DNA of 60,246 nucleotides from Erysipelotrichaceae bacterium (GCA_030528645.1 JAUMYM010000001.1:1-60246); one strand, 5' to 3'; shown: positions 34,123-38,208, counted from the first letter of the stretch. The notes: generated by a model not told the origin, from the letters alone. Program-made: numbers and translations.

Positions 34123-34147
34123 AAAAGGACTTGAATGTCCTTTTATT
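34123..34147. terminator. Bidirectional terminator after the zinc operon
   Basis: AAAAGGAC-TTGAAT-GTCCTTTT with A-run before and T-run after, between convergent stops at 34122 and 34143. Confidence 0.8.
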
Positions 34148-35648
34148 TTTTTATAAAACGATAAGCCTTATAAGGATACTGTGTTTGTAACACCTCAACA
34201 AACGCCTTAAATGACTTTAACTGCATTCCCTTTTCTAAAATAGGAATCGCTATACAATCAACATAAGGATGATCTTTATACGCCTCTAAAAGATCCAACG
34301 CATTGATATTTTCATTATGAACACGTTGTATAAAACGAATATGACTGGAAGTATTTGCTTGTAAAGATTGAAGTACTTCTTGTTTTATCTCTTTATGAAA
34401 AATAATGTTACTTTCATAATCAATGCAATCTAAATACTTATAACTATATGGATATAAACACTCATCATATAGTTTTTGTATTACTGCTTTACGATCTTCA
34501 ATTAGCTTAATAGCCAATTCTGTATATAAAGATACTTGTTCATCTGTATTTACAATCACTTCTACAAGTTGTCCTTTTACTACCTCTTCCTTTTGAAAAA
34601 TGACTTGATTGCTATGGTCCATCGCAAAACGATACACCGCATCAGAAAGAGGAAAACTTTGCATTGGATACACCAAGACCGGATTTTTAAAGCAAGATCC
34701 CATTCCATCTTTTTCCAATAGAATCTCCAATAAAACTTCATGAATACAATCCATTTCTGCTTGAAGATCTTGATATGTAAATGCCATTGTTTCCTGTGCA
34801 ATCATACACTTCTTTTTCTCTAATGTAGTATCTACTGTAACATCAAACTGTAAGATACACTTAGGATGCTTAATGCCATAATAAGTTGGATAGTTAATTC
34901 CAAAAATAAACATTTCCAAATGTTTTTTTAATGTTTCTTTACTTACTTGATCCTTCTTAACAAAAGCGGCTAAATAACGATCAAAATGCTTAAAGATTAA
35001 AGGTTGATTCCATTCATACTGCACAATATTAATAAAGTTAATCAATTGGTGTAAGAAGGAATCCACATGTTTAGCCGGCTTGGCAAAGACTTGATGTTCA
35101 ATTCCCAACCCCAGATTCATCAAAGTCTCTAAATTAAAACAAGCTTGATTAAAACTTAAAGTATCTAAATTCTTTACTTCTAAATATCCCTTTTCAATCG
35201 CCGTAACAACATCATTTGTAAAGACATCATTCATCCAATAATTATGTACAATCAATTTCGCATTGTAATCCGATAAGCCACCGGTAGAAAGATTAATACA
35301 ACTGGAATCACTAAAGTATTCATTTACAATACGCTTAAATTGTTCAACACTGGACTTCATATTACGCTTTTTCTCACGATTTTTGCGATATAAAATATAC
35401 TTTTTCGCAACATTGCCATATCCGCAAAATCCTAGTACAGACTCTACACTATCCTGAATATCTTCAACCGCAATACTATGATCAACAATTTTACTTGCAA
35501 AATCTGCCGTCACTTTTAAAGCTAAAACATCAATCACATCTTTTGAATATTCAATATTTGTTGCAATAAAAGCCTTTGTAATCGCATCAATAATTTTATC
35601 TAGCTTAAACTCACTAATGGAACCATCACGTTTAATCACTTTATACAT
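34143..35648 (-). CDS. Degenerate class III ribonucleotide reductase (NrdD)-like protein with ATP-cone, no glycyl-radical domain
   Basis: A 501-residue protein; intact NrdD is usually about 700 or more. Residues 1-92 are an ATP-cone (MYKVIKRDGSISEF..., ending GNVAKKYILYRKNREKKR), the nucleotide-sensing module. Residues ~115-330 follow the NrdD barrel: a degraded IHIHD segment (LEVKNLD), PAKHVDSFLHQLINFINIVQ, FDRYLAAFVKKD, MFIFGINYPT, KDGMGSCFKNPVLVYPM. The catalytic-Cys segment expected next (SMCCRL in NrdD, then GSIGVVTINL) is absent; weak homology resumes at ELAIKLIEDRK and LYPYSYKYL. The protein ends (FVEVLQTQYPYKAYRFIKK) just where the zinc finger and glycyl-radical domain (RVxGY) should begin. 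The frame is clean and the gene is coupled to the MarR-radical-SAM gene, 2 bp away. Probably a non-catalytic, nucleotide-binding protein. Confidence 0.8.
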   Translation of the reverse strand: MYKVIKRDGSISEFKLDKIIDAITKAFIATNIEYSKDVIDVLALKVTADFASKIVDHSIAVEDIQDSVESVLGFCGYGNVAKKYILYRKNREKKRNMKSSVEQFKRIVNEYFSDSSCINLSTGGLSDYNAKLIVHNYWMNDVFTNDVVTAIEKGYLEVKNLDTLSFNQACFNLETLMNLGLGIEHQVFAKPAKHVDSFLHQLINFINIVQYEWNQPLIFKHFDRYLAAFVKKDQVSKETLKKHLEMFIFGINYPTYYGIKHPKCILQFDVTVDTTLEKKKCMIAQETMAFTYQDLQAEMDCIHEVLLEILLEKDGMGSCFKNPVLVYPMQSFPLSDAVYRFAMDHSNQVIFQKEEVVKGQLVEVIVNTDEQVSLYTELAIKLIEDRKAVIQKLYDECLYPYSYKYLDCIDYESNIIFHKEIKQEVLQSLQANTSSHIRFIQRVHNENINALDLLEAYKDHPYVDCIAIPILEKGMQLKSFKAFVEVLQTQYPYKAYRFIKK

Positions 35649-35650
35649 AA

Positions 35651-36727
35651 CTACCCTCTTACTTCTAAGCCTGTTTGCTTTAACTCTTCTATACTATAAC
35701 CATCTTCCTGATACATACAATCACAATAGATGTAATAATGATCTTGTATCCACATGGATATATCCTTTAAATCTTTTAAAGTATGCAGTTGTCTATGTGC
35801 TATTGTTTTAAATTCATAGTCAATCCCACTATGTTTAATAAGTGAAATAGCTTGATCAATAATCTCTAAATTAAATTCTTCACTTAAAAGTCCTGATGTT
35901 TCAAGATACTTCTCTTTACTATTAACAATATCCATACTGATATAATCCACTAAGTGATTCTCTAAAATCTGTTTTAATACACTGATATTATGTCCATTGG
36001 TCTCTAACTTAATTTTATAATTCATCTTCCTTAAAGCATTTAAAAACTCTACAATACCTTGCTGGATCAAAGGCTCTCCACCTTTGATTGTCACACTTTG
36101 AATACTACCTTGTTTCTCTTGTAAATATTGTAAAACATCTTCACTCTTTAACGTTTCATCTACTTGTTTTTTAGTATGTTGATGCTTAAGACGAGTATAA
36201 CTACACTTATAATTATTATCAGCCAGGTAGATGGTTGTATTTAAGTAACCATCATATTCCTTTAAATTAAACGCATCCATATCAACAATTAACACATCAA
36301 TCTTATAATCAAATGTATTCACAAGCGAATGATATGCCAAAGCATCCATAAGCTCAATACAGTGTTGTTGATTTAAATCTCCAATCACTAAATCTTTTGT
36401 CTTATTGAGTATTTGATAAAAATCCTTCATTAACATTTCCGCTTTGCTTGTTGTATATAATCGTTTAATACGCTTATCTTGACGATCATTTTCAATATAA
36501 ATCAACTTCGCATCTTCTAATTTACCAATACTCTTTGTCGTTGTTCCTTTATCAAAAGCCCCCATAGTCGTTAACTCTTGCATTTTCAAACCTTGATGTT
36601 CATTGATAAACAATAAAAACAAAAGCTGACCGGCTCCTATGTTATATTTAAGAAGATTTTGGTCAAGATGCTTTTGTGTTAAGCGATATAGAATGGAGAT
36701 ATTCATTAAAAAATCTTTATTTGGCAT
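35651..36727 (-). CDS. MarR-type HTH fused to radical-SAM (NrdG-like) domain with lost cluster cysteines
   Basis: A 358-residue fusion. Residues ~1-135 are a MarR winged helix (HQGLKMQELTTMGAFDKGTT, then IENDRQDKRIKRLYTT as the wing). Residues ~140-358 resemble activases of anaerobic ribonucleotide reductase (TIGR02495 type): TIKGGEPLIQ (GGEP at 216-219), KLETNGHN, VDYISMDI. The cluster motif CxxxCxxC is replaced by N171-NYK-C175-SY-T178, so only the middle Cys remains and a [4Fe-4S] cluster is unlikely. The gene starts after GAGGAAATT and is followed 2 bp later by the NrdD-like gene. Read together: a DNA-binding regulator derived from an RNR activase. Function unproven. Confidence 0.82.
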   Translation of the reverse strand: MPNKDFLMNISILYRLTQKHLDQNLLKYNIGAGQLLFLLFINEHQGLKMQELTTMGAFDKGTTTKSIGKLEDAKLIYIENDRQDKRIKRLYTTSKAEMLMKDFYQILNKTKDLVIGDLNQQHCIELMDALAYHSLVNTFDYKIDVLIVDMDAFNLKEYDGYLNTTIYLADNNYKCSYTRLKHQHTKKQVDETLKSEDVLQYLQEKQGSIQSVTIKGGEPLIQQGIVEFLNALRKMNYKIKLETNGHNISVLKQILENHLVDYISMDIVNSKEKYLETSGLLSEEFNLEIIDQAISLIKHSGIDYEFKTIAHRQLHTLKDLKDISMWIQDHYYIYCDCMYQEDGYSIEELKQTGLEVRG

Positions 36728-36742
36728 AATTTCCTCAAATCT

Positions 36743-36762
36743 ATTATAAACTATTGTATAAT
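36743..36762. promoter_or_regulatory. Divergent -10 boxes between MarR fusion and tRNA-binding gene
   Basis: TATAAT on the - strand at 36743-36748 and on the + strand at 36757-36762, with poor -35 boxes. AT-rich symmetric sequence here could hold a MarR operator, but no long perfect palindrome is seen. Confidence 0.4.
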
Positions 36763-36787
36763 GAATATAACATAAAGAGGTGAAAAT

Positions 36788-37132
36788 ATGGAATTAAAAA
36801 AAGATATTGATTTTGAAGTATTTGAACAACTAGACATACGTGTTGGAACGATTACAAAATGTGAAAAACATCCGGATGCCGATCGCTTACTCGTATTTCA
36901 AGTAGACTTTAAAGACTTCCAAAGACAAATCTTAAGTAGTATTGCAATGCATTATCCAAACTGTGAAGCCTTAGTTGGTAAACAAGTTGTAGCCATTTTA
37001 AACTTAAAACCTAGAAAATTAAGAGGCTTACTATCACATGGAATGTTGTTGTGTGCCGAAAATGAAGAAGATACAATGTTATCACTTGTTTCAACACTAG
37101 AAAAAGTAGAAGACGGATTATTTGTTGCATAA
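36788..37132 (+). CDS. Free-standing tRNA-binding (EMAP/MetRS-C-like OB-fold) protein
   Basis: A 114-residue single-domain protein with the tRNA-binding OB-fold of the MetRS C-terminus, CsaA and Arc1p: FEQLDIRVGTITKCEKHPDADRL, then VGKQVVAILNLKPRKLRG and LSHGMLLCAENE. Closer to the MetRS beta-subunit type than to CsaA by LKPRKLRGxxSHGMLL. Likely binds tRNA or assists a synthetase. Strong AGAGGTG site; single gene with its own terminator. Confidence 0.88.
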   Translation: MELKKDIDFEVFEQLDIRVGTITKCEKHPDADRLLVFQVDFKDFQRQILSSIAMHYPNCEALVGKQVVAILNLKPRKLRGLLSHGMLLCAENEEDTMLSLVSTLEKVEDGLFVA

Positions 37133-37170: not shown

Positions 37171-38208
37171 TTATTTTACTTCTTTTACTGCTTTTGTAGT
37201 AGCTTCTAATGCTTTTAAGTAGCCACCAACTTTAATTGTCAATGATGTTTTGAAATCTTCAGCAGTAGGAACTGTCTTGTCATCTACTGGTAAAGCTAAT
37301 ACATCAGCAACTGTTTTACCAACTGCGTATTCTTCTAATACAGCAATTTGTTCAAACCATTCTTTTTTGATTGGTGATGCTTCTTTCATACCATAAGCAT
37401 CGCCTTTTTCTTTCTTCGTAGGTGTTTGAAGTGCAGTTAAATCTTCTGTTAATTTACCAGCTGTATCAAATTTACCAGTGTTTTGAGCAACGTCAAATGT
37501 TGCATAAGCAATTGTACCATCTGCCTTTAAAGCAACAGTAGCCATTGTTGTATTCACTTGAATTTGACCTTCTTTTTCAGCTGTAGCTTCGGCATTTCTA
37601 AACTCTGTAATTGAACCTGTTGCAACAGAAGCAACTTCTTCTACTTCCACTAAGTTCTTACTAGCAACTTCTAATGATTTTAAATAACTACCAACTTTAA
37701 TTGTTAAAGAAGTTTTAAAATCTTCACCTGTAGGAACTGTTGTATCATCTACCGGTAATGCTAATACTTCAGCAATCGTTTTACCAATCGCAAATTCTTC
37801 TAATGCAGCAACTTGTTCATACCATTCTTTTTTGATTGGTGATGCTTCCTTCATACCATAAGCATCGCCTTTTTCTTTCTTTGTAGGTGTTTCAGCTGCT
37901 GTTTCAACTACTTTACCAGTCGCATCAAATTCACCTTTGTTTTGAGCTACATCCCAGTAAATACTAACGATTTTATCACCCTTTAGTACCACTGTACAAT
38001 ATGTAGTATCTGCTTGAACATAACCATTTTTGTCTGTTACTTCACTTCCTTTTAATGAAGTTACTGAACCTGTACCTACCGAATAAGTAGTCATTTCACT
38101 GCCTGAAGTTGTCTCTTCTGCAGTTGTAGTTGTAGTATCTGCTACTTTAGGTGATGTACAACCAACTAATGTTGCAGCTACTAATAAACATGCAAGTAAT
38201 TTTTTCAT
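37171..38208 (-). CDS. Lipoprotein made of two tandem ~140-residue repeats
   Basis: A 345-residue lipoprotein (lipobox LVGC, Cys17), a Thr-rich spacer (18-44), then two copies of one domain at about 45-182 and 196-336, offset by 155 residues. Each has a beta segment with DVAQNxGxFD, an identical stretch beginning TPTKKEKGDAYGMKEAS, and an end KTSLTIKVGxYLKxLE. Similar repeats occur in surface lipoproteins of anaerobic Firmicutes, sometimes near FMN-binding domain proteins; I do not know the function. Own promoter with TTGACT; terminator shared with the convergent gene. Confidence 0.8.
   Translation of the reverse strand: MKKLLACLLVAATLVGCTSPKVADTTTTTAEETTSGSEMTTYSVGTGSVTSLKGSEVTDKNGYVQADTTYCTVVLKGDKIVSIYWDVAQNKGEFDATGKVVETAAETPTKKEKGDAYGMKEASPIKKEWYEQVAALEEFAIGKTIAEVLALPVDDTTVPTGEDFKTSLTIKVGSYLKSLEVASKNLVEVEEVASVATGSITEFRNAEATAEKEGQIQVNTTMATVALKADGTIAYATFDVAQNTGKFDTAGKLTEDLTALQTPTKKEKGDAYGMKEASPIKKEWFEQIAVLEEYAVGKTVADVLALPVDDKTVPTAEDFKTSLTIKVGGYLKALEATTKAVKEVK
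37201..38076 (-). repeat. Tandem duplication inside the repeat lipoprotein gene
   Basis: Copy 1 spans about 37663-38076 and copy 2 about 37201-37623. The most conserved part codes for an identical stretch starting TPTKKEKG (residues 107 and 262). DNA identity is also high there, so homologous recombination between copies could change copy number. Confidence 0.75.

Follow-up and report, generated by a model that had tools for sequence, protein, structure and literature searches.

A catalytically dead ribonucleotide reductase-activase pair as a candidate regulator of the anaerobic ribonucleotide reductase operon in an Erysipelotrichaceae bacterium

The gene pair and its lost catalytic features

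A 60,246-nucleotide stretch of DNA from an Erysipelotrichaceae bacterium (GCA_030528645.1 JAUMYM010000001.1:1-60246; the whole stretch is called the window) carries two adjacent genes on the minus strand, P0002 followed by P0001 after a gap of 2 bp. P0002 fuses a MarR domain to a relative of NrdG2, the activase of a class III (anaerobic) ribonucleotide reductase (RNR), and P0001 is a reduced form of NrdD, the class III RNR itself. The original prediction described two dead-enzyme genes 2 bp apart, one bringing a DNA-binding domain and the other an ATP-cone; the genes, the gap and the loss of catalytic residues were borne out by coordinates, alignment and motifs, and the two domains were located as MarR in P0002 and PF03477 in P0001. 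The predicted span, 34143-36790, holds both genes, but it ends 63 bp past the start of P0002, so that it takes in intergenic sequence and just enters the next gene. The features of the pair are as follows.

35651..36727, minus strand: P0002, fusion of MarR and an NrdG2-like pseudo-activase, 358 amino acids (aa) (Pfam/NCBIfam, AlphaFold, Foldseek)
36308..36727, minus strand: MarR DNA-binding domain, P0002 residues 1-140 (Pfam MarR 4e-8; Foldseek 3bpx, TMt 0.89)
36518..36553, minus strand: MarR recognition-helix region, residues 59-70, DKGTTTKSIGKL (D59, K60, G61, T62, K65 and L70 invariant in live and dead pairs)
35726..36283, minus strand: NrdG2-type domain resembling radical S-adenosylmethionine (SAM) enzymes, residues 149-334, GGEP kept (TIGR02495)
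36194..36217, minus strand: broken 4Fe-4S motif, NNYKCSYT versus CxxxCxxC in relatives, two of three cysteines lost (motif comparison)
34143..35648, minus strand: P0001, pseudo-NrdD, 501 aa, ATP-cone and truncated, catalytically dead class III RNR core (Pfam/NCBIfam; alignment to live NrdD; Foldseek; ratio of nonsynonymous to synonymous substitution rates, dN/dS, 0.115)
35373..35642, minus strand: ATP-cone of P0001, residues 3-92 (PF03477, 72.8 bits, 1e-18)
34656..35288, minus strand: remnant of the first half of the NrdD barrel, residues 121-331, first-strand cysteine lost (PF13597 profile 8-211/562)
34146..34655, minus strand: shrunken second half of NrdD, residues 332-501, finger-loop cysteine region and glycyl-radical domain deleted (alignment)
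36728..36787, minus strand: promoter/intergenic region of the pair, without the TAGTTG-N6-CAACTA operator described below (best score -1.7), unlike live pairs

P0002 scored above the cut-offs of the MarR profiles PF12802 and PF01047 and just above that of TIGR02495 (NrdG2; E 1.8e-38, 131.9 bits against 131.15), a match that indicates homology, not activity. Its cluster motif reads N171-NYK-C175-SY-T178. The AlphaFold model of P0002 had a predicted local distance difference test (pLDDT) score of 86, with values below 50 at residues 179-188, adjoining the broken motif, and it matched MarR structures and pyruvate formate-lyase (PFL) activase/QueE in Foldseek. In P0001, the match to NRDD (PF13597, 3e-25) covered profile positions 8-211 of 562 only, short of a full barrel. 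The finger-loop cysteine region (RSMCCRLRLD in relatives) was deleted in the alignment with live NrdD, the first-strand cysteine was gone (GYCAGW to NQACFN), and the glycyl-radical domain (RITGYY; RxxGY motif) was wholly missing; class III RNRs nonetheless ranked first when the AlphaFold model (pLDDT 80) was searched by Foldseek. Judged by sequence, P0001 as built cannot be an RNR, nor P0002 an activase. The ATP-cone of P0001 keeps K6, R7, Y84 and R88, which are among the residues invariant across the family and match, by position and motif, Lys7, Arg8, Tyr83 and Arg87, the residues named as phosphate and base contacts of the ATP-cone in Prevotella copri NrdD (PMC11226230); they are predicted to contact nucleotide here as well. 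The window genome (G000, 1.38 Mb) also has a separate, intact nrdD-nrdG (G000:C28, L001), with RRITGYL near the C-terminus of NrdD and CPHHCFGC in NrdG, and one class I RNR large subunit.

The same pair was found at 94-95% identity in the sister species Erysipelotrichaceae bacterium OH741_COT-311. Between the two species, dN/dS for P0001 was 0.046 in the ATP-cone, 0.084 in the barrel and 0.171 in the second half, and for P0002 it was 0.079, so that the pair falls within the range of the neighbouring genes (0.04-0.18, one gene without change left out). Of the columns strictly conserved in live pairs, dead pairs retained on average 89% for the ATP-cone and 91% for MarR, and fewer elsewhere: 60% for the barrel, 52% for the second half of NrdD and 62% for the radical-SAM domain; the corresponding values for the window pair were 96%, 85%, 36%, 24% and 45%. 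Read from these values, the pair is under purifying selection and is neither a chance arrangement nor a decaying pseudogene.

Live relatives and repeated loss of catalysis

When 98 genomes of relatives in the order were searched, the pair was found in about 35 of them, mostly as a live class III RNR. The gene order, MarR-NrdG2 and then NrdD, was widespread across genera and families, so the co-occurrence that the original prediction had proposed to look for does extend well beyond the window genome. The hosts are gut and oral bacteria, and full-length MarR fusions were confined to three families (f1, f2 and f21) in a class-wide sample. In most genomes the live NrdD is about 790 aa long and has every catalytic motif plus a glutaredoxin-like tail; its activase carries CxxxCxxC. 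The C-terminal glutaredoxin-like domain (TxTCPNC; for example L086:5604-7976), which is perhaps a built-in reductant, is absent from the dead forms. One live operon (G063) is split between MarR-NrdG2 and its NrdD by an IscB-like gene with an HNH motif (L085:6291-7607).

A dead NrdD was present in 13 of the 98 genomes. Nine of these form one clade (complete copies are about 650-680 aa long, the finger-loop cysteine is gone and most keep RVxGYY); the others are the two species of the window genus (501 aa), G032 (508 aa) and Eggerthia catenaformis G058 (571 aa). All dead NrdDs examined had lost both substrate-site cysteines, and those of G000, G001, G032 and G058 had lost the glycyl domain too. 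The activase cluster motif was flagged as broken in 7 of the 13 dead pairs by motif scan; in G002 and G051p three cysteines remain, with their surroundings changed. Two further dead pairs occurred in named metagenome-assembled genomes (L299 and L304), and L308 and L322 (about 510 aa, finger-loop cysteine kept) were not counted as dead because a frameshift is possible.

The number of losses was taken from the MarR-NrdG2 tree because very long branches of the reduced members marked the NrdD-like tree. The dead label needs five changes on the MarR-NrdG2 tree, four of them forced by well-supported branches; by this tree, catalysis was lost separately in at least four lineages, with the MarR and ATP-cone ends kept. 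Live ancestors coexist, even in one genus, with forms that are half decayed (about 675 aa) or fully reduced (about 500 aa), and in genus g32 the live pair of G382 (787 aa) occurs alongside the dead pairs of G032 and G314. Since most relatives have the pair as a live RNR-activase operon under its own control, the window pair appears to be an enzyme turned regulator, and the conversion of an enzyme complex into a transcription factor would be visible here in stages.

The operator at nrdD and the likely role of the pair

Upstream of the live MarR-NrdG2 genes we found a palindrome, roughly TAGTTGRA-NN-TYCAACTA (18 bp; TAGTTG-N6-CAACTA in short), which was present at the pair's own promoter in 20 of 21 live MarR-fused pairs. 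An operator matrix was trained on these 20 sites, canonical nrdD promoters being excluded, and 99.9% of random 250-bp sequences scored below 11.8 bits. The operator was present at the canonical nrdD promoter in all 13 dead-pair genomes (19.0-26.4 bits), in 7 of 16 live-pair genomes, in none of four genomes where the activase of the pair has no MarR, and at 1 of 47 nrdD promoters in the 41 genomes that lack the pair. Fisher tests, which take genomes as independent, gave 2.7e-12 by promoter and 1.3e-11 by genome for dead versus no pair, and 0.0012 for dead versus live. Three genomes added independently, G314 (dead), G382 (live) and G426 (live, from another order), likewise carried the operator at canonical nrdD.

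Pattern searches of the whole window genome yielded a sole perfect TAGTTG-N6-CAACTA, at C28:13608-13625, outside the window and 50 bp upstream of canonical nrdD; the site at nrdD in the sister species is identical. A single TAGTTGR-N4-YCAACTA site, upstream of nrdD, was obtained by pattern search in each of nine genomes (G002, G012, G022, G023, G030, G042, G051, G054 and G058), that is, eight of the nine members of the main dead clade plus Eggerthia, while most live-pair genomes having an exact site had it at the pair itself. The operator was located 30-84 bp upstream of the nrdD start. In several genomes it follows a likely -10 element, which points to repression, either as a road-block or through competition at the start site.

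Presence or absence of nrdR, a check named in the original prediction, was also determined. The NrdR profile TIGR00244 (Zn-ribbon and ATP-cone) had no match in any of the 98 genomes, the window genome included, and was positive in 9 of 14 control genomes. NrdR was likewise missing from the 41 genomes having nrdD and no MarR-NrdG2 pair. Because of this absence the NrdR-like job appears vacant, and the dead pair is a candidate for the missing RNR regulator of the order.

The pair is conserved and dead, its DNA-binding and ATP-cone ends are kept, the RNR genes are its predicted target and nrdR is absent; for these reasons it most likely regulates the RNR operon, one of two targets that had been proposed. 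We hold it very probable that nrdDG is under its control, and there is good reason to expect a repressor rather than an activator. The fuller account, which we consider likely, has the pair dedicated to transcriptional control of nrdDG, the canonical operon for the anaerobic RNR, most likely as its repressor and with ATP/deoxyadenosine triphosphate (dATP) input through P0001. As to its parts, P0001 is rather likely to be the signal input, and ATP/dATP is the somewhat favoured signal. The ancestor would have been a live MarR-NrdG2/NrdD operon, its MarR controlling its own promoter and, in some lineages, nrdD as well. The MarR domain of P0002 would bind TAGTTG-N6-CAACTA upstream of canonical nrdD, and P0001, whose partnership with the pseudo-activase goes back to the RNR-activase complex, would act through the ancestral activase contact. 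Its ATP-cone, the obvious input by likeness to NrdR, would report the ATP/dATP state and alter DNA binding by P0002, so that high dATP would shut nrdDG.

Several observations weigh against this account. The promoter of the window pair had no operator when scanned; because of this, autoregulation, which is present in relatives, seems to have been lost, and the other proposed target, the operon itself, was rejected for the window genome. An operator is present at nrdD in G093, where no pair was found (the genome is 82% complete and belongs to the same genus as the pair-bearing G063), and G019 (L104) has the site TGATTGAAAATTCAACTA (19.7 bits) about 100 bp upstream of a live nrdD, with an activase that lacks MarR; a different MarR may have taken over there. 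Kinship among the genomes is a further concern for the Fisher tests, reduced, not removed, because there were four or more separate origins. CxxxCxxC is kept in the activase part of dead pairs G012, G022, G030, G032, G042 and G058, and because of these six, and of RVxGYY in most of the nine-member clade, radical chemistry of some kind may persist in such pairs. Lastly, MarR-NrdG2 has no adjacent NrdD in L281, L294, L297, L303, L307 and L313, where the cluster motif is intact; a P0001-type partner is thus not always needed, and these solitary genes are possible stand-alone regulators or trans-acting activases. Four of the six adjoin a gene for a glycosidase resembling glycoside hydrolase family 1 (GH1).

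The solitary genes and the six dead pairs with a complete cluster motif would suit a simpler arrangement, in which P0002 alone regulates nrdDG and senses something other than adenine nucleotides (oxygen/redox, SAM or a residual radical-SAM pocket), P0001 being a structural partner or stabiliser. P0001 is kept in every dead pair of the genome set, however, and its ATP-cone is its best-preserved part in both retained columns and dN/dS, so we consider this arrangement possible and rather unlikely. Another reading, with MarR incidental, would make the pair a variant enzyme or have it modulate live NrdD/NrdG, for instance as a decoy subunit acting on NrdD allostery. This is improbable: P0001 partly keeps the NrdD fold and could mix with live NrdD, and several dead relatives keep the glycyl motif, but the cysteine and glycyl-domain losses described above, the place of MarR among the best-kept parts, and an operator at nrdD that tracks the pair all argue otherwise. 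We give slightly less credit still to another transcription factor that binds the palindrome, the correlation with the pair then reflecting shared genome ancestry. The G019 site fits such a factor, and operators could be inherited along with nrdD; however, four of the five live pairs that lack MarR and are not accompanied by a second, MarR-bearing copy had no site, compared to the 20 of 21 MarR-bearing pairs with one. In G051, moreover, the site is present at nrdD and at a live pair lacking MarR, and a dead MarR-bearing pair lies elsewhere in the genome, as expected from regulation in trans; dead pairs arose in at least four lineages; and no other protein of the whole window genome matched the MarR domain of the family at E <= 1e-5. 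A decaying pseudogene remnant without function, which the deletions and lost catalytic residues might suggest, is highly improbable and was rejected on dN/dS (0.08-0.12), the reading frames being open in two species, the two ends selectively kept and the operator present at nrdD.

Among other possible targets, class I nrd genes were rejected: 13 regions were scanned, with no operator in G000 or G001 and a best score elsewhere of 11.1 bits, near chance. One-mismatch sites examined above 13 bits in the window genome were all in coding DNA, save one in the short gap between hsdM- and hsdS-like genes (G000:C23:41843-41860), which is the second-best intergenic operator-like site among those examined (16.9 bits). 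Inside the window, 43 loose matches to the operator were counted versus 40 expected. Near the pair, positions 37171-38208 (minus strand) encode a 345-aa lipoprotein-like protein with two near-identical repeats (..YGMKEASPIKKEW.EQ..LEE.A.GKT.A.VLALPVDD..) and no Pfam family above its cut-off.

Relation to known systems

The literature searched, which included few subscription journals, yielded nothing relevant on NrdR in Erysipelotrichia, on pseudoenzyme RNRs or on MarR-NrdG fusions, and no description of a regulator made from a dead RNR and a dead activase and aimed at a live RNR was found in it. MarR repressors, NrdR and enzyme-derived regulators are already known. We are evenly divided on whether the pair forms a nucleotide-pool regulator of a new class, one whose ATP-cone, carried by a dead NrdD, gates a MarR carried by a dead activase, which arose at least four times in parallel from self-regulated RNR operons, and which stands in for NrdR. 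The ATP-cone is in essence restricted to RNRs and NrdR (PMC11226230), and one outside them is unusual in itself. NrdR represses when loaded with dATP and ATP (PMC9110341). The system allows a direct test of how catalytic sites are lost with allostery retained, and of whether live MarR-NrdG2 links the activation of RNR to expression of its own gene.

By sequence and gene order, the direct ancestor of the pair is the class III RNR NrdD/NrdG with an NrdG2-type activase (TIGR02495; NF006126 PRK08270), whose live versions (RSMCCRLRLD, RITGYY, CxxxCxxC) persist in sister genera, whereas the window pair has lost all catalytic features. NrdR, to our knowledge described as a near-universal repressor of bacterial RNR genes, resembles the pair in placing an ATP-cone in a regulator of RNR genes and in having its sites at nrd promoters. 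The pair differs in using a MarR winged helix instead of the Zn-ribbon, in splitting the function over two proteins, in having one 18-bp palindrome as operator instead of two NrdR boxes, and in its derivation from RNR and activase enzymes in genomes without NrdR. With the one-component MarR repressors (MarR 3bpx, SlyA, MexR) it shares the DNA-binding fold and a palindromic operator near the promoter, binding of the pair being predicted; its MarR is fused to a radical-SAM activase domain beside a pseudo-RNR, and it would not bind a small ligand in the MarR dimer as those repressors do. Enzyme-derived regulators, or trigger enzymes, include PutA, BirA and NadR, metabolic enzymes that also regulate. 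The pair went on to lose catalysis, and it differs from them in that two partners of a single radical enzyme system underwent the conversion jointly and relatives still have the live intermediate.

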